In this document: one piece after another, positions 2,124 through 58,657 of the stretch
Layout of the letters: each line of letters begins with the position of its first letter
Numbering within the stretch: position 1 is the stretch's first letter
Assembly: GCA_036674765.1 (NCBI GenBank)
Contig: JARVKI010000064.1
Span: forward strand, 124,001 to 188,000
From: Seiridium cupressi
Taxonomy: Eukaryota; Ascomycota; Sordariomycetes; Amphisphaeriales; Sporocadaceae
Direction of reading: 5' to 3'
DNA: 64,000 nt
Program-made: the position numbers and the translations under genes
Notes under the pieces: generated by a model
Seen by the model: the letters and a program-made list of their open reading frames with translations, nothing else
Told to the model about the DNA's origin: nothing
The model's database searches: none

Positions 2124-3536
2124 TTAATTGTGTCCACGGAGCCCGAAGCCTGGATCGACCTTGAAGGGCTTCTCACGAATGAATGAGCTGATGTCGCTTT
2201 GATATGCGCATTCATTCAAGTAATCATGAACCTGGGGCAGTATGAGTCCGGGCTCTGTTGTGTCGCCTCGAAACTCGGGTATCTGAATTATGTTGTATGG
2301 CTGAGGACGAGCCTTCTCCTTCGAATCGTCAATGAGGACAGTATTGGTCTGGTCCCAACGCTTCCCCGCCTGTGCTTCAGGATGACTGGCCGCGACTTTG
2401 GGGTCGCCCCAGATGCTATCAAGTCGCTTGTAGCATTGAACCCTCTGATGGTAGTCCCCCGCACTTAGACCTAGTGTATCTCGTCCCCAGACAGCGACGA
2501 GCTTGTTCTGGTCCTGCGGTGATAGAATTTGTGGTACCATCTTGCCCACATTCTCTGGTTTAGCCGTCGACCATATGGCCACTGTGAATGTCCGCAGACA
2601 ATAGTCCAGGAAATTTCTGCTATACGGACGCTCTACAAATGTGGATGTCTTTTTATGATTAGGTCGATAGAGGAGAGTGCCGTTCAAGTCAATTATGACC
2701 AAAATATTGCGCGGGACTGGCAGCACAGAGGGTGATTTGGAAGATTGAGTTATGTATTCCTTGGTAGGATTCGGTACACCACCTGAGCTCTTTGAAGGTT
2801 TAATATAAGGTTTCTTATCCTTAACGTTGTCCTTAGTGATGGCAGGCCTGCCGAGGATGGGTATCTTCACTGCCGTGATTTGACCTGGCGTCAACTGTGG
2901 TAGTGGTTCTCCTACACTCGGATTGCTTGAAGTATCTGAGTCGATTTCAGCTTCGTTAATGCGACCATCCGGTCGAGCGCTGAGAGGCCCTCCATGACTT
3001 GGTCTCATCGCCGATGCCTGCATACCGGCCGCCGTGGTGCCAAATTGCTGATTTGGCTGACCAGAAACGGGGTAGTTCCCAAGCATGCCCTGAGGCGCAT
3101 GGTGGCCGCCATACCCAGTATTGGCCGGACCATAGTTTACGACTGGAAACACCTGCCCAACCTGCGGTTGCTGCCAGCCAGGCCATGCAGTGGCCGGATT
3201 GGGAGCCGGTATGAAGGCCGGAGCGTATGGGTCGAAAGCAGGCCCTCCTGAGCGCGTTGAGCGCGTCTCCCGCCGGTAAAATTGCTGCGAACTCATGATG
3301 CTGACTTTCGGCGCCGAGGAGCCTTCATCGTCTGGCGATGAGTCTTGGGTCGTGCTGTTGGGAATTGACGACGAAGCTGATGAGCAACCGTGCCGCGATG
3401 AAATGTGGATGGATTGGTTGCGCCACAGCCGTCGTCGCTGAAAAGAAAGATGCCGTGCTGATGTCGTCGATAGTGCACGCTGACTAAGAACAAAAGACGG
3501 CTGAAGCCTTGTTCTCCAAATGGCGGCCAATGTCAT
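2124..3536 (-). CDS. FCP1/NLI-type HAD-fold protein, probably mitochondrial
   Basis: A single-exon frame of 470 residues starts at an ATG at 3536. The first 40 residues are rich in Arg, Ser and Ala and lack acidic residues, like a mitochondrial presequence. Residues about 75-265 are Pro/Gly/Gln-rich and probably disordered. The C-terminal third is an FCP1-homology (NLI-interacting factor) HAD domain: motif I reads DLNGTLLYRP, a WSTAKPENV segment follows, and a VLIDDSKEKA segment matches the late acidic motif. Catalytic FCP1/SCP phosphatases carry DxDx(T/V); here the second Asp is Asn, so the protein may be non-catalytic, as Tim50 is. It could be a Tim50-like import factor or a fungus-specific phosphatase relative. 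The domain is clear; the role is inference. Confidence 0.85.
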   Translation of the reverse strand: MTLAAIWRTRLQPSFVLSQRALSTTSARHLSFQRRRLWRNQSIHISSRHGCSSASSSIPNSTTQDSSPDDEGSSAPKVSIMSSQQFYRRETRSTRSGGPAFDPYAPAFIPAPNPATAWPGWQQPQVGQVFPVVNYGPANTGYGGHHAPQGMLGNYPVSGQPNQQFGTTAAGMQASAMRPSHGGPLSARPDGRINEAEIDSDTSSNPSVGEPLPQLTPGQITAVKIPILGRPAITKDNVKDKKPYIKPSKSSGGVPNPTKEYITQSSKSPSVLPVPRNILVIIDLNGTLLYRPNHKKTSTFVERPYSRNFLDYCLRTFTVAIWSTAKPENVGKMVPQILSPQDQNKLVAVWGRDTLGLSAGDYHQRVQCYKRLDSIWGDPKVAASHPEAQAGKRWDQTNTVLIDDSKEKARPQPYNIIQIPEFRGDTTEPGLILPQVHDYLNECAYQSDISSFIREKPFKVDPGFGLRGHN

Positions 3537-5419
3537 TGGTATAGATGCATGGTTTGGTCAGATATTGAATGCTGCCAGATGATTATGCGCGCGCAGCTTT
3601 GCAGAATCGCAGGTCAAGATGGTGAGCAAACAAACTTTATCCACTCCATTGCGCCGGCAGGAAAGTGGGGCCAGATTTGGACGACCTGTCCAATCATAGC
3701 CCTTGTTAATTGTTTGCTGTCGAGTAGGACGACAAGTACGTCTCTCACTGAAAAATTTGAGAATCTAGACTGATTCAAATTTATAGCTGCCATATTTGAG
3801 GTGCTTCATTAGAATAGCATTTGTTTCTTCGCCCATTGCCAATATGTGCTGCTAAACTCTCACATCAGCGCGAGCGAAAGTTCAACCATACCGCCAATAT
3901 ACCCATAGTCGACCTCGAATCCGAGTCATGCTCCAATAGAGACGACCTCTTCTCTGGGCTGAGAAGATAAAGTTGTTGTACTGTATCAAGTAACAAAATT
4001 TTCCTTTCTCTCGATATGTCCGGAGCCTACTACCATGACTCGACCACCTTCGCCCAATTACTACCACTACTCCGCGAATTCACTTCTTGCCCGCATTACT
4101 CCAGATTTTGTCCCAGGCGATGATCCTCTCCCTAGCTTTCTCGGCATTCTTCTTCATCGTGCTACTCTGTCCGGACCCCACAGAGAGGTGCTCGGTTGGG
4201 GACACTGGACCCCCGAACACGTAGTTTTTGACTGAGTAAGGGGCTTGCTTGTCCCTGGTCCCTTTCCTGACACGCGAGCATCAGTCCGGGAACCAAAGTC
4301 ATGGGCCAGTGGTGGGTGAACGCGTATAGCTGAAAAGCGGCACTTACCCGCTGGACAATGCTTCAGCAGCTGATATATGAGGTGGAGAAGCCATGGCTCT
4401 TTTTTCTCTTCCCAAGCGATAGAGTGGGCGCAATCGTAGCAGCTGTGGATGGTGTGTTTATTTATTTGCTTTACTTGGTGCTATTGCGAACAACTCGGCT
4501 GAGCTGCAAACAGAGCAATCAATCCAGGACTGTGTGGGTAGCGACGATGATGTCTGAAATGTTCCCATTGGTGTTTCATGACATAGAAGGACTTGAGGAT
4601 AAGCTTGAGGATCCAATTGTAGCGGTGCCTAGAAAGAATCGATGTCGAGACCATGGTTGCGACTTCCACCGCGATCATTCGAAAGTCTCATGTGCCTAAA
4701 CTCAATGAGTCACCTCTTTGGTGCTTTCCATCTCTGACAAAACTATCAGCACTCTTGCCGTGCAGTCGTAGTTTTGTCGAGGTCATACCGTGGCTGTAGA
4801 ACTACGATGAAGGCAAGGTCAGTACCTTGATCGAGATCAAGGTGTTGCGGTCACATGGTTGCTCGCGGCCGCCCATATGCGCGCCACAATGGTGGGCACA
4901 TCTGTGCTCTGACATGGCCAACACAGGCATGGTGCCGTCTGATTGGCCATCCATCCTTATCGTCGGGTGTATTGTTGTGGCCTCTTTCGACCAGCTGCAT
5001 GGTGAGTGTGTCAATGGTGACAGGTGCCAAAGATCCGTCCACCCTGACGTCTCTCAATTGCAAGGAGAATGTACGGTGGCCAATTTTGATGGCTAAACAA
5101 TTTGGCCGCCATGCACGGGAGTTCCAACCAAGGCGGCAATTGCCGAGTTGAGTTGTGGACACCAAAGGGTAGGTCTGATCATAAAGTACGTTATTAGACT
5201 TGTTGTATGTAACAAGTTGCGAGCATCACGAATAGGGTGGGGAAGTCTCGCAAACCAGGTACTGGCGCCGCCGGCCATGCGTACATGTGTTTGGGCAATA
5301 ACATCGCACAGATTTGGGCATCTTACAGCTTGGATTTTGCTCGAGTTGATAGTCAATTTGCTCATCCATGCTAGACTTCTGCTATTCCAGACAGTTTGGT
5401 AGCCAAAAAAGCACATATA
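3537..5419. other. gene-free stretch
   Basis: This holds the promoter side of the FCP1-like gene and the 3' flank of the sugar transporter. A 66-codon frame at 4035-4235 has an acceptable start context but no recognisable features, and the other frames overlap one another on both strands without family signals. Nothing else is supported. Confidence 0.45.
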
Positions 5420-49128: not shown

Positions 49129-52100
49129 TCATCTCATCCGCTTATGGAAAAACTGCTTTATTCTGTAGCACGTTCTTCTCAACCACTCCCACATCTTTCT
49201 GGGGATCTTTCGGACTGGTGATTCCAGGTGCTCCGTTACGCCCACAAAGCCAGTGGTTGCGTTTGGTGGATGGCTCAAAATAGGTTCGGCGTGCTTGGCC
49301 GGCTTTGTTTCAAGTTCCGACCCTTGCTTCGAGATCTGGTGTGACATCCGATCTGGTTCTTCCACGTGATGTGCCGCCGTGTCTGGGTGGTCCTGAGGGT
49401 GCCGTTCGACATGCTCGGGGCTGTGAGCCCTCTGGCCACATAGAGTCGTACGCTCCAAATCGGAGGACTGGCGGTCTCCTGTGTCGACTCCATCCGCCAA
49501 GGATTCAAGGTCGCTTCCTTGGGTCGTGAATGGCGTATCTACAGGCGATTTGCCGCTGGGACCCGAATTCAGGGAGAGCGCAGTAAGATCGGTCTCACCA
49601 TGTTTTAGCACCGCGGTAGCCTCTGTATAGCAGGCTGCCCGGCTATTATCTTCAATTTGTATGGGAGTCTTGTTCAGACCATTACCATCTGGTGGCGCCG
49701 AAGTCTCACCATCATCAGTCTCAGCGTGCTGGAAAGCCTCGATTGGTTCATCGATAGTGGAACTTGCGTCGAATTCACCTGACCCTTTTCCGACCCCGTT
49801 GGTCTCCAACTTTTTTAGTTCGCTGAGTATAAGTGTCAGATCTTCGGCATCACTTGTAGCTTCGTCGCTGCTGCTTGGCATCTCCTGATAGTTAGCTAAT
49901 GATTCTTACAAGCTTCTCGGGTAAGCGCCATCTACACATACTGTTGGTTGACCGTCGATTGGCACACTGCTTTCACGACGGTCTGGAGAGGATGCCTGAA
50001 GCGGATCACAGTATCCAACGCTGGCTTCGCATAGCTTATACACATGCGTGAGATGGGTGTGAAATTGGTCGATTTTCTCCCTTTGCGCAGGGTCGGGAAC
50101 CAGAAGACTGTGCTTGATGTGATGCAGGAAATCCCGAATGCATTGAGAGCAGTTTTCTTGTCCCTGTAAATCATGGATCCACTATTCACTATGAGCTTTA
50201 TACCCTTCTTGGGGGTCGGCATGATACAACTTACTTTGACCACACAATCCTTCACTTGCGGGACATACGTATTTGGTGGACCGAGACTTCGTGATTTAAT
50301 ATTGAAGAATTTGTCTTCGGGAAAAATAGAATCGCCGAGAGGCTCGTCTTCCTCCAGTCGAATGCTTTGGAAGGTCTCACGTGTGGCCTTATACCCGCGG
50401 GTCGCCTCGTACCCGACCAAGAACCACGATATAAATTCAAGGTATAGGCAACCCAAGCTCCACATGTCATACGCCTGGGAGATATATCGTTGTGTATCGA
50501 ACTCCGGAGCTCTGTAGGTGCGAGACAAGCCCAAAACTTTGTCCTGTGGGACGTGAGATACCGACTTGGCTGAATGAAAGCGAGTCAATCCGAAATCTGA
50601 AACCACCAGGTGATGTTGCTTATGGCCAGGAGGCATGAAACAGAGTATGTTTTCCGGCTTGATATCACCATGTCTTCCACGATTCTTATCTGCATCTTCC
50701 GCATGAGCAGTGATGCTCAGATTCTTGTTACTGGACCATGACCCGTGATGATGAATTTTCCTTAGTCCGTCAGCGATGCCGAGACACTGTTTGATGAGCC
50801 AGCGAACAAGGACCGGTGATGAGGTCGGATCTGGTGTCTGTTCCCAGAGATCCACCAGATTTCCATGCGCCCAGTCGAATAGAAGGTAGTAATTTTTTGC
50901 GTGCTGGAACGCTACCCTTAGTCGGATAAGATGGTCGTGACCTGGGTTAGGCCCGCTGAATCTCTCCAAGACTTTCACCTCCTGCTTGTAGGCCTCATAT
51001 TCGTCCGAATGAATTTCTTTGATGGCGAAATAGGGGTTGGTACTTCGAGATCCCTATCACCAATTAGAATCAAGTCCTAGTCTGTTTCAAGCTACTTACA
51101 TCTGAGTCTACGAAGCTGTGATGAGCCGGATGGATCTTGACTTTCCAGACCGTCCCGTATCCTCCACTTATCTTCTTCTCCCACTCCAAGAAGGGCAAAA
51201 TTATCCTACCGTTGTCGATTTTGTAGAAGTGTAAATCGTCAGGAGGCATATCAAAGAAAGGCGCCAAAACTCGATATTGCGTGTTAGTGAAGTTTTCCAT
51301 ATCGTTCCATTTCCATTTATCTAGATAGATAACTTCGGGGGCGCTTCTCTTTTGAACCTGCACCACGTTGCGTTGTTGCTTGTTTTTGTGTAGCCTTAGT
51401 GGAAGATGGATGTCACGGATATCGTTTTGTATGAAATCTTCGATGCAAACGACTTTACCAATCAGTATGAGGACAGCAAGTATCATACGGCGGCTGTTTT
51501 GGTGGACATTGCTGTGGATAGCAAGCGTCATAGTCTCGATCTTCTCAACTTCGCCTGGGAAAGCTCGATGCAAGATCTGATTGATCCTCGTCTTATCGAG
51601 CAGCGAGACAAGTTTGTCAAGAGGCAGAAAGTCCTGGTCCATTTTTGCATCGTGATGACTGTCCTCGAAGGCGTCACGCAACTGGTTGTCCACGTGATCA
51701 AGATATTCTGTATCGTCCAGGTCTTGGCCCAATTCCTCTGCAGTAGCAGATTGCTCCGGTGGGGATGAGACAAACACGGCCCCTAGTCCGTTGAGAGTGC
51801 CTTGGGTGTCACGGTCATCTGGGCGAAATGCCGGTGTTCGTGTCCCATCCACAAGGTAGTGTGGATGCAGTGAGTCTGAAGAGGCTCTTTTTCGTGGCCC
51901 CGATCTGCTAATTTGGTTCAGACCAATACTAAATCCAAAGTCGTCGATGGTCGTTATGCTTTTGAAGTCTGAGTGTCGACTGGGCGCCCGGGAACGCTCG
52001 TTATCGTCTGTAGGGGTACGAGGATCTTCTCCTGGAGCAGAAACCTGCACACTAGGCGTCGGTCGCCCAAGATGGCCCACTTGCTCCGTGGAGAACTCAT

Positions 52101-52350
52101 TATCGACGGCGAGAAAAGTGCCTCGAGATAATCTTCGGCCTCTATCGTCCTTGAGGGACGATGCCCTTGGTGAATGGGAAGCTGAAGCTGATTGTGGCCT
52201 TAACTTCTCTAGTGGATGCGGAAGATAAATGTCGTCGGTTGAATCCTCTCCTTCTTGATGGTAGGATTGTTTAACGCCCTCTCGTGGTGGGATTTTAGTA
52301 TAGTGTCCGGCGGTTGTGAACCGCATCTCGGCCTCCGCTGTAGGCTCCAT
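49129..52350 (-). CDS. protein kinase with shared N-terminal domain and long acidic tail
   Basis: Four exons (52350-51100, 51053-50235, 50181-49942, 49884-49129) give 1021 residues; the last intron has a strong GTATGT donor and a GCTAAC branch site. Residues 1-215 are disordered. Residues about 222-385 form an N-terminal domain (NQLRDAFED, FLPLDKLVSLL, ILAVLILIGK, QYRVLAPFF) also found in the divergent neighbour. The kinase domain spans about 390-720: GGYGTVWKV loop, AIKEI Lys, HGDIKPEN catalytic loop (HGD replaces HRD), SDFGL and RAPEF. All catalytic residues are present. A C-terminal region of about 250 residues is acidic and disordered and ends in MWEWLRRTCYRIKQFFHKRMR-like cationic amphipathic sequence. 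Probably a Ser/Thr kinase of the expanded fungal families linked with HET and NLR genes. Confidence 0.85.
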
Positions 52351-54831
52351 CGCGCATCGTGGAACGTTAAGGGCCCGTCACGAGGAACTGATAGGCCCGA
52401 GCATCTCACAAGAAGTTGAAGAAGTTGACTTTCGCCCGAAGGTAGCGACTTTACTAGCGGCGACCTTGGAACGGTTTTCGTGAAACGGGAACTCCAGGGC
52501 CAGGAAACAGATGGTGTAACGAGGTCCCACGTCTTCTCCTCATGTACGTCGCCGTACTGCCATGAACACCCATCAGTAACCCTAATCATTGGGGGCCGAA
52601 ACGAGGCTCTGTGTGCGTCTGCAGGCGGCCTTGTGCAGGTAGTATTTCCTGCTTACCGCCCATCTCCTCGCCTACAGTCGCGCTAGCCTCCATAAATGCA
52701 GCCGCGTTCCTTTTGGGGAAGAATACCGAGCTGAACGGCCGAACCCTGCGAGCGGCTGAGAACATGGTGTTGCACTTCTGCGCCTCGGTTTAATCTTTTG
52801 CGGTTAACGTAAGATGCTGAGGATTGAAAATGGTCGATGTGATCGATGGCTACACAGTTTTGACTACACCAACGGGTTTCTTGATGTTACAAGCGCTCTT
52901 CGAGTTCGAGTAGACGCCAGGCTCTGTGAAAACTTGTGCTGTGGTCCCCCAAGTAGCTCGATTGCGACTAGTCTAGTTCGTGCCTATAGGAACTAACCGA
53001 CACAATCTGACTTGCATATGGATCAACCCCCCACCCCCTTCTCCTAAAGGACATGAGGTAGGTAGCAAATATTTTTGGCAACAATAGTCCGGACGCGCCA
53101 CCACATGCTCGAGACAATAAGCTGAAGACTCATGGTCCTCGTGACTTCGGGGTTCTTCGTATTTAATGTATCTTTGTGTGGCCGGTCGCTAGACCCTCTA
53201 AATAGCAGCCACCGATCAATGTTCATATAAAGTGGCATTGAAACGCTTTCAGATGGATGCATGCTTCGTACCTCGTAGTTCAGAAGCAGAGAAATCAAGT
53301 CGCTCCTGAAGACGCAAGGCTTTCGCTTATTGTAAGCCTCTGACACATGTTGGCCGGTCCAGTGGCCTCACAGCCTCAGCCTCCACGCTTACTGATGTCC
53401 TCCAATGTAGCTATCATGCACGAACAGGGGTATGCCGCATTCGTAGCCTGTCGGATTCGGTGTGAGCATGCCACCAACATGGATTCTATTCTAATCAACG
53501 TCGAAGTGGAAAAATACCGCAGAAGTCCTAGCCCCCAGCTTACATATATATTTCTCGCCAGCGCTCGACCCCTTTCATCATCATTATCGGAAGCAGGCTT
53601 TAGATAAGATATTTTCAACATTGGTTGATTGTTCACGACTCATCTTGCGGTTTCTGATCTTTGATCTTATACCAGATCCTCAATGCACCTCTCCTCCAGG
53701 GCAAACGCGGCCAACAACTGTGGGGACAGCTCTGTGGTGAAGCTGCACTCCAATCATGTCCGGGATCCGCGAGCACTGTCTGGCGTCCTGAATTCATTGT
53801 GGGGGGAAGGCAACTTTCGTGTCGAACTCCGCAACGATATATACATAATCCACAAACATAATAAGACGACCATTAAGAGCAGAATGGAGCCCACGCCACA
53901 ACATATCATTGCTTGATAGAGGACTTATAGGGGGAGAATAGAGATAGATATCAACCACATCGAATGTCGCGTAAGTACATCATACGCGTTGGAATATCGC
54001 TAAGGAGGTGAAACTAATATGTGAGAAGCCTAGGCCGGGGCAAAGCGAATACCGTATTGCAGGCGCTCGGAAAACAGGCAAACTCAGCAGGATATTCAGT
54101 GAAATTGCAGTCGAGGTTCCAGGAGTAAAGGAGTAAAGATACCCATGTGCATAGAATATGTGATAAGTTTATAGAGGAAACAGGTTGTTTCCAGGCTTCG
54201 TTATGCATTTGTTTCATGTCTTTTACTCCTGTCAGCCCGAGGCGCAAGCGATAAACTGCGCCCGGCATAGCAGCAGACATGCTGATCAGGAGGCCTAAGC
54301 TTCGGTTTTAAAGTTGCATGCATATAGGTCACCGAAACAATATCATCGACCGACGGCTAGTGCCACATGGACTAAAATGGCTTGCATGGCCAATACATGG
54401 CAGATGGTCGCCGTGCATACATGTAGTTACATTTCGCTAGCGCTTTTGCAGGGGCTAGCATCGAGGCACACAGTTCAGCCTATCGCATAATGTAAGACAC
54501 ATGATTGGCGAGTGTTTACTACCTGTGACATCAACCGAGATCCTGCATGTCCACCGGTGGCAGTGTCACATGTCCAATGCCATTTTACACTAGAAAGATG
54601 CGCAGCCTTGTGTAGTTACATATTGTCGGGCGCACTTGTTCGCCAAAAAAAGTAAGAATAAAAAGTGAAATCTGTGGCGGTGCTTACAATGGAAGGAATA
54701 TATTACACGGATCCCACCAACCACTTGGTGTTTGCGGACCAAGTACCATCCAATAACACTGTCTGCGAGTGGCTATTTCTGAGTCAAAAAGCTTTTCGCT
54801 CTCTGTGGATACACCACGCAACTCAGAACAA
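52351..54831. other. divergent intergenic stretch between the kinases
   Basis: 2.5 kb separating two divergent related kinase genes. Short frames only. The right border is uncertain because a non-ATG frame extends the kinase-HET reading frame upstream to 54769 and an extra 5' exon cannot be excluded. Confidence 0.45.
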
Positions 54832-57800
54832 ATGGGGGATGATTCGGAATCGAATGAGCTGTATCACCAGATCCGGGATGCCCTACAGACATGCGATGGA
54901 GATTTTGAAGGCCGAGAGTTTTTACCAAATGACCAAATGGATAATTTTATGACGGCGGAACACATCGAATTAGCACTAAGGAAAGAGAATGTGTCACCGA
55001 TACCGGACCTCATTGACTACGTGCTCAGCTCGGCAAGGAGAGTCTTCTTAACCCTCGTCACAATCGAGAATCTCCCAGCCTTGATCGATCTCAAGACTGA
55101 AGGATTCAGGGATGAGAACCTACCAATCCATCGGATGAAGAAGCCACAGCCAGGTATTGGGTCCTGGGACGAGCCTATGAAGGCTGTAGGTACCAAACGT
55201 TGGACGACATTTGTAGGGTGGAAGAACATGCTCGTCGACAGCTTCATCACAAATCAATGGAAATTCCTTGCTCCAACTTTTGGTAGAGGGAACTTCGTTC
55301 GTGTCTTTCAAAGAGACCAACCCTTGCCTTTTATCACACCGGGTGGTATTACTGTGCGGAGAAGGGGCCATTTCAGCTTAGTACTGAGAGTCGGGGTTCA
55401 CTCCGCTCATGCGGATCCAGAGTTATTCAACGAGGTATGTAATGTAATGAAAGTGATTGACAATATATTTACGATGCAAGGTCGATGCGAACGTTTCCGA
55501 GGTGGCCGTCAAGATATTTAACCGTGGACTTGAAGACGATTTTTACAGGGAAATGGAGACATTACGAATCATAAAAGAGCTGGAGCATGATCATCTGATC
55601 AAACCCATCGCGGCATTCGAGAATGGAAGCCTTCAATGCTTCATATTTCCCTGGGCTGAAGGAGGTACGTATAATTGTATCTAAAGTTTAAAATGTTCAG
55701 TGCTGACGGAAGTTTCACTAGGCAATCTTCGGGATTACTGGAAACGAACAGACTCTGCCCTCAGTGGTCGGCCAATGCGAAACGAGGAAACAGTCTCCTG
55801 GGTCTTAACACAGATGCGCGGTCTCGCCAATTGTCTCAAGCTGCTTTGGGATGCAAATTGTAGACATGGTGATTTGAAACCGGAGAACATCCTCCTTAAT
55901 GGGCAAGGGAATATGGTAATTGCTGACGTTGGACTGTCTAAAATCCACACCGCGGTGACAGAAAAACGGAATAAAAGCTCGTCGGCGAAATTTGCCACAC
56001 GTCGATACGCAGCACCTGAAATCTATATGGATGATAGGCACATGCCTTTATCTCGAGATTATGATATATGGTCAATGGGCGTCGTCTTGCTAGAGTGGGT
56101 AACATGGCTCCTCCATGGGGATAGCAAGCTTCGCGACTACGCTGCACTTGATACTCTCTGGAACTTCACAAACGGAAAGCATGAAGTACACCCCAAGACC
56201 AGGGCCTGGATTTCTGAGATCAAACATGACCTGAGCGCTGATACAGCGTTGAAGGATATAATTGAACTCATCGAGGCTCGCTTGTTGATTATTGAGCTGT
56301 CGGAAGAGGGGGAGTCGCTATCCATGGGTCGTGCGAAAGCCACATGGCTATCAATGTGTATGGATAATATATGTGAACGGGCAAGGCGGGAAGCATCCTA
56401 CCGATATGATCCCAGAATATGGCAACGGACGAGAGATTCCGCGACGACAGGTGCAAACTTGGATGTACCATTCCAACACAGACCCCGAATTGCAAAACTA
56501 CCTTCATCGGATCCTATCAGCGACAGTGTTGGGAGTAGTACAAATGATAATCTACCAAAGATCAACATTCAGTCCACGGACGGCCAAACGACGCAGCCAA
56601 ACTTGACTCTGGCTGTCGTTCCTGATGAGTATAACGAAGTAAGTCGCTCAGAATATGGCACATATATATATCCTTTCTGACTTGCATAGTTTCATCGTCG
56701 AACCCTGAAAGATGTATGGGATTCTGGACCAGACAATAAATTTGCATCCTCTATTTTCGACCTAGTCAAATGGACCACGTTAAAGCCTAGCTCATCGCCG
56801 TCAACTCTGTGTTCTTCTTGCCGGTCAATGGCTAGCTGGACCAACCGGTCTGAGCTCCCCTATGACATGAGGACACTCGACAGTCGAGGACAAGACTGCG
56901 ACTTGTGTAGGCTGATCTATGAATCGCTTCTGGCATCAGGAGTAAAGCTTGACAGTTCGGGAAAATTGTTGCGTGTTGGGTCAACTCTCAGGAATGATTC
57001 CTCAGCATCGCCTATCATATCGATCTATGTTGATCCACCTGCAGGTACGAAAACACTAACTTCACATCGGTCCCTACGCTGAATTTCAACAGATTCAGAA
57101 AAGTTTCCATTGCCGTTCGCTCAACTGGGCCTTCCACAACTGCCACAGCCGTCTAGCGGAACGCAGGCCATCATATTCCGCCAGTGGCTGCGGACATGCG
57201 ATCATGATCATAAGTGCCTAGTCACTTCGCAGTCTCAGGATAAGTTCAAGATGCCAACGAGGCTTATCGATGTTGGAACATCGTCCGAACAAAGCCTACG
57301 GCTGATAGAGACTACAGGCATGGCCTATGAGAAGTACGTTGCGCTTAGTCATTGCTGGGGAGACGTGCCAGAACACTTAAAACTCTGCACGTACCGCAGC
57401 AATATCGAAGATTTCAAGCGAGATATCGAGTTTGCGCGGCTGCCTCAGAACTTCAAGGACGTTGTGACTGTGACAAGAACCCTGGACATTCGGTACGTCT
57501 GGATCGACTCACTCTGCATCATCCAAAAAGACAAGTACGACTGGGAGATCGAAGCTGGCAATATGGAGCTCGTCTTCAGTGCGGCATATTGCACCATCGC
57601 AGCGGACTCGGCCGAGTCTTCTCTGGCTGGATTTCTGCACAAGAGAGAACCTCGGCCTTGCGTGACGGTGAAATCACGAGCTACCCAGCTCTACTTCTGT
57701 AAAGCGATCGATGATTTCCATCATGATGTTGAGAAGAGTGTACTAAATACACGGGGGTGGGTCCTTCAGGAGAGAGCCCTATCACGCAGGACAATCCACT

Positions 57801-58657
57801 TTTCCGCAAACCAGGCCTATTTCGAATGCGGTCAGGGGGTGCGCTGCGAAACATTGGCGAAGTTGCGCAAGTAAGGCTTCGTTCACCCCGTTTTGCTATG
57901 ACTTTTGACTGACGTGTTCAATAGCCCTAAAGCCGAGTTCCTTGAAGACCCTGATTTCCCCCGGTCAGCCCTCAAGCACTTCAAGGCTCAACGACAAGTC
58001 TTTTTCCACGACCTGTACTCCATGTACTCGAAACTCACGTTCCGATACCCAACCGACCGATCAGTCGGACTGCTGGGCCTGGAGCGTCGGCTGGCGCGTA
58101 CCTTTGACACACAAGCTGATTACGGCATCTTTGAGAGCTACCTCCACAGAAGTCTCTTGTGGATGCCAGAGTCGAAGGAAAAGCTGAAGCGGATTTTGTA
58201 TGAAGACCGTAGCGTGCCCTCTTGGTCATGGATGGCATACACTGGTGCGATCAAGTACGTTGACGCGCCCTTTAATGGTGTGGAATGGAACACGAAAGAT
58301 GTCAAAAACCCATTTGCATCTGGACCACTTCGGCAAAGCACAAGTACCAACAAGCAAAAGCCAATTGCCGAACTTGAGGCTGTCGCGCACCAATTTCATG
58401 CCAGCACATTCAGCATGTTTGAAAGACTGAAACGTTGCATGTTTGACACGGAGCCGCACGACGACTTGACTCCTCTTCGATGTGTCGTGCTTGGAAAGGA
58501 TAAAGCAGGGAGTGAGCAGGACAGAAGCGTCTACGTTTTGATAGTTAAGCCGGCCTTCCCAGAGACTCGAGATGGGATCTGGAAACGCATTGGGGTGGCC
58601 TGCATTCTGTCGTCTCACCTGTCTGAGAGGTCTGGGATATCCGTGAGAATCCATTAA
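54832..58657 (+). CDS. protein kinase-HET domain fusion protein
   Basis: Six exons (54832-55434, 55481-55664, 55722-56638, 56690-57044, 57093-57870, 57925-58657) stay in phase and give 1189 residues. Residues 10-160 match the N-terminal domain of the divergent kinase (QIRDAL, REFLPNDQ, QWKFLAPTF). The kinase domain (about 175-460) has a weak Gly loop (RRRGHFSLVLRV), AVKIF Lys at about 212, HGDLKPEN at about 311, DVG instead of DFG at about 331, and RYAAPEIY. The fourth intron (GTAAGT...CTGAC...CATAG, phase 0) joins it to a HET region: CSSCRSM, a CDLCRLIYESLL preamble, then KYVALSHCWGD at about 765, YVWIDSLCIIQKD, AAYCTIAADSAES and NTRGWVLQERALSRRTIHF. HET domains trigger incompatibility cell death. 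Kinase input with HET output is inferred. Two separate genes remain possible. Confidence 0.8.

Follow-up and report, generated by a model that had tools for sequence, protein, structure and literature searches.

In fungi, the HET domain is reported to be enough to cause cell death (PMC10197012, PMC12881547) and to be a remote relative of the TIR domain (PMC4986451, PMC9815663). How HET domains kill, like the architectures of most HET proteins, is presented as a question still unanswered and an evident gap in knowledge (PMC10197012). Among fungal NLRs, head-to-head arrangements are reported for 13 of 225 two-NLR clusters (PMC12258605). A report on Trichoderma describes kinases that carry ankyrin or TPR domains and, separately, HET combined with other domains, with no kinase-HET protein in the sections of it that were covered (PMC3218866), and the main text of a fungal kinome survey holds no words starting with 'het' (PMC2838846). 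No description of a kinase-HET architecture was found in the literature searched, which consisted mainly of open-access journal papers.

We analysed a window of Seiridium cupressi DNA, that is, the whole stretch of 64,000 nucleotides. It encodes a predicted kinase-HET protein (KHET) and, on the other side of a shared intergenic region, a related kinase without HET. The more interesting result, in our view, is this conserved linked pair of NTD-kinases (NTD, N-terminal domain) with the death domain on one member only. The main features are the following:

54832..58657, plus strand: kinase-HET gene (KHET), six exons, 1189 aa, from the predicted spliced model and homologues
56639-56689, plus strand: intron joining the kinase and linker to HET, phase 0, GTAAGT donor, TAG acceptor
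52351..54831, no strand: intergenic region of 2.5 kb between the divergent KHET and partner genes, a possible shared control region (putative)
49129..52350, minus strand: partner gene, NTD-kinase without HET, 1015 aa, exons 52350-51100, 51053-50235, 50163-49942 and 49884-49129

The spliced frame of KHET runs from the ATG at 54832 to the TAA at 58657 through 1189 codons without internal stops. Its five introns are 46-57 nt each (55435-55480, 55665-55721, 56639-56689, 57045-57092 and 57871-57924), and the order of the product is NTD, protein kinase, disordered linker, HET domain and C-terminal region. A sequence-only reading of this DNA had proposed that a phase-0 intron brings the kinase and HET domains into one 1189-residue frame, which the spliced model and the Pfam matches bear out; the consensus splice signals it named at 56639-56689 are there too (GTAAGT and TAG, together with a YTRAY branch-like match), and the stop codon that it placed inside the intron corresponds to the TGA at 56678-56680, which ends the open frame of the kinase exon. 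When donors between 56450 and 56680 and introns of 39-130 nt were considered, six GT..AG pairs fused the two frames stop-free, all six with a YTRAY branch-like match, and a consensus donor was present in only one of them, 56639-56689. The junction lies between residues 568 and 569, at the end of the linker that is disordered (aa 501-572) in an AlphaFold2 model of a Seiridium cardinale relative, and the residues on its two sides (DEYNE before it, FHRRTLKDVW after it) are continuous in relatives (for example, DEYNELHRRNLDDVW in P0002 and DEYSEHQNKQLNDAW in P0006). The presence of kinase and HET in one predicted chain is well supported.

The domains, and the residues expected to matter in them, were located in the window as follows:

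54859..55356, plus strand: NTD, aa 10-175, in exon 1, from a profile match (54856-55338) and an AlphaFold2 model of exon 1
55357..56194, plus strand: protein kinase domain, aa 176-420, Pfam PF00069/PF07714 and profile matches, split by introns 1 and 2
55511..55513, plus strand: kinase lysine K212 (VAVK), K in 116 of the 116 rows with a residue (5 gaps)
55865..55888, plus strand: catalytic loop HGDLKPEN, H311-N318, with H, D and N in 121 of 121 rows and G in 119 of 121
55925..55927, plus strand: metal-binding Asp D331 of D(V/F)G, in 121 of 121 rows
57335..57772, plus strand: HET domain (Pfam PF06985), aa 768-913, E 8.3e-30, also found by the genome search
57551..57553, plus strand: HET Glu E840 in DWxxEA..M, E in 110 of 121 rows, candidate TIR-like Glu

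Conservation was scored in an alignment of 121 rows, comprising the window protein and 120 listed homologues (the best 120 of 380). The Pfam kinase match covers aa 201-420 (E 5.3e-24, far over the cut-off), and the residue set of an active kinase (Lys, αC Glu, catalytic Asp, Asn and the Asp of D-x-G) is complete: E225, the αC Glu, is kept in 120 of 120 rows, and H311, D313, N318, D331 and G333 in 121 of 121 each. In 119 of 121 rows, a glycine (G312) stands where an Arg normally precedes the catalytic Asp (HGD, not HRD), which makes the KHET kinase, by sequence, a non-RD kinase. The HET match reaches 104.5 bits against a curated cut-off of 22.5 and spans profile positions 1-146 of 146; KHET is therefore a member of PF06985 above the curated Pfam cut-off, and its cell-death function is predicted. 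The HET core residues are kept about as well as the catalytic residues of the kinase (S772 in 121, H773 in 120, W775 in 120, G776 in 121, D825 in 119 with 2 gaps and E840 in 110 of the 121 rows), with the motif set itself (SHxWG, WIDSxCIxQ, DWxxE) taken from this alignment. E840 is a candidate equivalent of the TIR Glu.

Scanning KHET against Pfam down to E 1 returned kinase-type and HET families only, with no NACHT, NB-ARC, WD40 or lectin domain. A comparison of the HET exon with PDB sequences gave a best E of 0.31. The AlphaFold2 model of the Seiridium cardinale relative (60-row alignment) had a mean pLDDT of 84.0 and a pTM of 0.57, so the relative placement of the domains should not be read from it; a whole-model fold search was dominated by kinases, with FGFR, RET, IRAK4 and JAK2 among the best 50 matches, and was uninformative on HET or the NTD. 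As a side observation, the 45.4-Mb genome contains at least 151 HET matches, counted exon by exon, which indicates a rich HET repertoire.

Exon 1, which holds the NTD, matched no Pfam family, and its AlphaFold2 model (pLDDT 90.4, pTM 0.87) found no PDB entry by Foldseek at E 0.001 or better (best E 0.75) and none among viral models by fold search; neither VIA nor a profile search against PDB sequences yielded a convincing relative. According to the model, then, the NTD folds confidently, and a convincing match among solved structures was not found; with no known fold relative, its ligand is not inferable by fold. Between KHET and its S. cardinale counterpart, 23 of 166 residues differ in the NTD, 8 of 245 in the kinase, 13 of 155 in the C-terminal kinase part plus linker, 17 of 190 in the pre-HET part, 7 of 185 in HET and 10 of 239 in the C-terminus. 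The NTD differs at a higher rate than the kinase (p 9e-5) and than the rest of the protein (p 2.6e-4). This rapid change fits a recognition role, and it could also be relaxed constraint, since the pre-HET part and the linker likewise differ more than the kinase and HET. In comparisons with distant relatives, the NTD is better conserved than the linker.

When 5.8 billion proteins were searched, 380 KHET homologues emerged among 7994 scored candidates. The closest listed relative is the S. cardinale protein, with 1189 aa and 93% identity, and the listed homologues are mostly named as HET-domain, kinase-domain or hypothetical proteins. Their genera are ones that we take to belong to the Sordariomycetes, Leotiomycetes, Dothideomycetes and Eurotiomycetes. 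This search with the 1189-residue protein, which the sequence-only reading had proposed, returned the same domain order throughout: by precomputed Pfam annotation, kinase and HET occur together in 120 of the 120 listed homologues (the best 120 of 380), a figure that is conditional on a length window and a ranking that favour full-length fusions. The NTD profile matched 116 of the 120, having been built from the same set. Judged from these matches, the NTD-kinase-HET order is widespread in Pezizomycotina and not peculiar to the S. cupressi gene.

In a FastTree phylogeny of the NTD-kinase region, all 120 listed KHETs and three from the S. cupressi genome formed one starred set of 123 rows that contains no rows from the partner list, which suggests one old kinase-HET fusion. 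The exception, P0166 from Colletotrichum siamense, comes from the partner list and carries kinase and HET, but its kinase sits on a long branch apart from the KHET set; the tree program flags its joining with P0232 as a possible long-branch artefact, and P0166 is possibly either a second fusion origin or a misplacement. Another listed protein, P0034 (PFICI_02646 of Pestalotiopsis fici), is a kinase-HET with an extra aldo-keto reductase domain (PF00248), perhaps from a merged gene model.

The partner gene and a comparable locus elsewhere in the genome comprise these further features:

51178..51681, minus strand: NTD of the partner, profile E 1.5e-20
50379..51041, minus strand: kinase domain of the partner (HGD, DFG), profile E 1.2e-44
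Contig C62, about 200.9-201.1 kb (L039 2865-3110), minus strand: 246-nt stretch between the kinase and HET frames of a second kinase-HET gene, which may hold introns or belong to a decaying gene

A search with the partner gave 223 matches, and HET was absent in 119 of the 120 listed (the best 120 of 223). Its best match is 99% identical and comes from Seiridium cupressi, with a longer N-terminus in the database model. In the partner clade, all 38 kinase rows retain the K, E, HGD and D, so that these kinases are non-RD as well. There are at least seven NTD-kinase genes in the S. cupressi genome, including the window pair, a pair on contig C62, a kinase-HET gene on C130, and genes on C2 and C1. 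The C62 pair is also head to head, with a kinase-HET at 199.3-202.8 kb (minus strand) and an NTD-kinase at 206.0-207.3 kb (plus strand); the kinase and HET of the former lie in separate open frames, 246 nt apart, with at least five stops per frame in between. For the kinase-HET on C130, no NTD-kinase partner was found in the 17.5 kb searched.

Other details of these loci deserve mention. Downstream of the C62 partner kinase, a stretch at about 3055-3740 of L040 is fused to the kinase in the S. cupressi database protein P0144, and a separate HET open frame at about 4031-5644 of L040 matches the HET profile weakly. Several HET-less NTD-kinases end in basic aromatic tails (window 49129-49230, minus strand; L040 about 2930-3005; L042 about 3900-3956), which perhaps bind membranes. 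Among database proteins of the partner clade, 17 of 37 have a net charge of +5 or more over the last 30 residues, compared with 2 of 120 among the KHETs and 21 of 83 among the remaining NTD-kinases; the difference between the partner clade and these remaining NTD-kinases is not significant (p 0.10), and the basic tail was rejected as a hallmark of the partner.

Linkage between KHET and its partner was assessed by matching organism and equal contig size in the two lists (the best 120 of 380 and the best 120 of 223). A KHET and an NTD-kinase were on contigs of identical length, which does not equal adjacency, in 20 of the 32 species common to both lists, and linkage was unseen in the lists for the other 12; orientation is known from the S. 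cupressi genome alone. No equal lengths across different species occur in the lists, and random placement in 45 Mb would put the second gene on those 20 contigs 0.93 times in all. Locus tags are consecutive in three genomes (PFICI_02645/02646, G7054_g9174/g9175 and JN550_000478/000479) and close in two more. Of 34 partner-list rows from shared species, 19 of the 22 in the partner's starred 46-row clade were linked versus 1 of the 12 outside (Fisher p 1.3e-5), with the clade boundary picked post hoc, after the tree was known. Alternative sets of 34 to 58 rows held 18-19 linked and 2-4 unlinked rows inside (p <= 7e-5), and a set of 119 rows, nearly all of them, gave no linkage contrast. The sole linked case outside the clade, Cosmosporella, has distant tags (Fc.00g001410 and Fc.00g010200). 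The tree distances of the two gene sets are correlated (rho 0.77; 22 pairs, of which S. cupressi contributes two; 0 of 2000 permutations), a correlation partly explained by shared species history. On this comparison of lists, the physical linkage of KHET and partner is conserved, and it holds in many genera whose proteins are about 35-50% identical to those of the window.

Taken together, these sequences suggest an undescribed two-gene immune or self-recognition switch. The sequence-only reading had seen a receptor-type switch in one chain; the fusion of kinase and HET stands, and the divergent partner kinase, which it did not mention, makes a two-gene module a likelier mechanism than a one-chain receptor. 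Our preferred reading, with a probability of about one half, is that KHET is an NLR-free intracellular receptor-executor and forms half of a conserved divergent two-gene cell-death module. It builds on what the sequences themselves establish: the single predicted frame, the domain order, the catalytic residues, the single-clade family and the linkage of the pair. Beyond these, we infer that the NTD has a recognition role, that the kinase is active, that HET drives death and that the two genes are functionally coupled. The NTD, fast-changing between close species, would sense either a partner protein or a cue of non-self or damage. The non-RD kinase, whose catalytic residues are intact, would relay the signal via phosphorylation or by driving oligomerisation, and regulated cell death would then be triggered by the TIR-related HET domain at the C-terminal end. 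The HET-less NTD-kinase partner may act as sensor, helper or regulator. A kinase that gates HET is the simplest arrangement, because the catalytic residues are kept and the kinase lies upstream of HET, and a receptor-type switch with a cell-death output is plausible, since published accounts hold that HET suffices to cause death (PMC10197012, PMC12881547).

The main rival to this module is that the linkage was inherited from tandem duplication without cooperation. KHET would then be a self-contained HET-type allorecognition or stress receptor, and its neighbour a duplicate kept close by inertia. Both genes share NTD and kinase ancestry, and the linkage could be a leftover of this kind, the partner and KHET kinases being relatives; moreover, the C130 kinase-HET is alone in the stretch searched, and 12 of the 32 shared species are unlinked in the lists. 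However, the link is kept in many genera despite identities of only about 35-50% to the window's proteins, and the S. cupressi genome has a further pair arranged in the same way; we regard this rival as unlikely. The C130 gene and the 12 unlinked species also bear on a poison-antidote or self-incompatibility unit, in which a self-toxic KHET would be restrained by the partner NTD-kinase of the same genome: the conserved divergent two-gene layout suits such a unit, as does het-B incompatibility, which is reported to be controlled by two neighbouring genes, one of them encoding HET (PMC10890737), but a kinase-HET with no close partner in the searched stretch and species with no linked partner in the lists leave it very unlikely.

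Other alternatives concern KHET itself. Its kinase could be an integrated decoy that mimics a host kinase targeted by factors of mycoviruses, bacteria or rival fungi, in which case damage would free HET and catalysis would not be the signal. For fungal NLRs, the possibility that kinase domains serve as integrated decoys has been raised (PMC12258605), and plant kinase fusion proteins are reported to act in immunity (PMC10260399). Against this, nearly all of the 121 rows retain the catalytic residues, and few parts of KHET change as slowly as its kinase; we regard a decoy as quite unlikely. It is highly improbable that kinase and HET are separate products, whether by retention of 56639-56689 in some transcripts, giving a kinase-only isoform that ends at the TGA at 56678-56680, or by a promoter of HET's own. 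The intron-internal stop means that retention would yield a clean, partner-like NTD-kinase, but the intron has a consensus donor, homologous sequence spans the join in relatives, and all 120 listed homologues (the best 120 of 380) are fused, although the length window and ranking favour full-length fusions.

The two-gene module, if real, would give fungal immunity a class of receptors built on kinases, in parallel with the kinase fusion proteins of plants. A kinase wired to HET in one Pezizomycotina-wide clade, with a sister kinase linked to it, makes a concrete and testable switch. A broader proposal, possible but tentative, is that filamentous fungi have an NLR-independent class of kinase immune receptors, in which an NTD-kinase and its NTD-kinase-HET paralogue work as divergent sensor-executor pairs and recognition lies with an NTD of new fold; such a class would be the fungal counterpart to immunity by kinase fusion in plants and to receptors paired as sensor and helper.

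Compared with known systems, KHET shares with HET-domain cell-death proteins a full-length PF06985, the domain called sufficient for death (PMC10197012, PMC12881547), whereas its sensor side consists of the NTD and a protein kinase, with HET in the C-terminal half. As in the two-gene death units of fungi (nwd2/het-S, gasdermin-protease and the Bh/Bp pair of het-B), there is a linked pair with one death-domain member (PMC10197012, PMC10890737); here, however, the pair consists of two related NTD-kinases, of which one has HET and the other does not, and Pfam reveals neither an NLR nor a protease part. Fungal NLRs with kinase domains and the head-to-head NLR pairs of Sordariales likewise place a kinase in a putative immune receptor and pair genes head to head (PMC4986451, PMC12258605), but KHET has no nucleotide-binding domain by Pfam and combines kinase and HET in one chain, and its linkage to the partner is frequent in the species examined, in contrast to the rare head-to-head NLR pairs (PMC12258605). 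With IRE1 (PMC7736581), the likeness is mechanistic alone, namely a possible kinase-driven oligomerisation that activates a C-terminal effector; the effector domain is not shared, and IRE1 is membrane-spanning. In plant kinase fusion and tandem kinase immune proteins such as Lr9, Sr43 and Pm4, too, the kinase is one of several fused parts, whereas the domain fused in KHET is HET, and the likeness drawn here is one of architecture.
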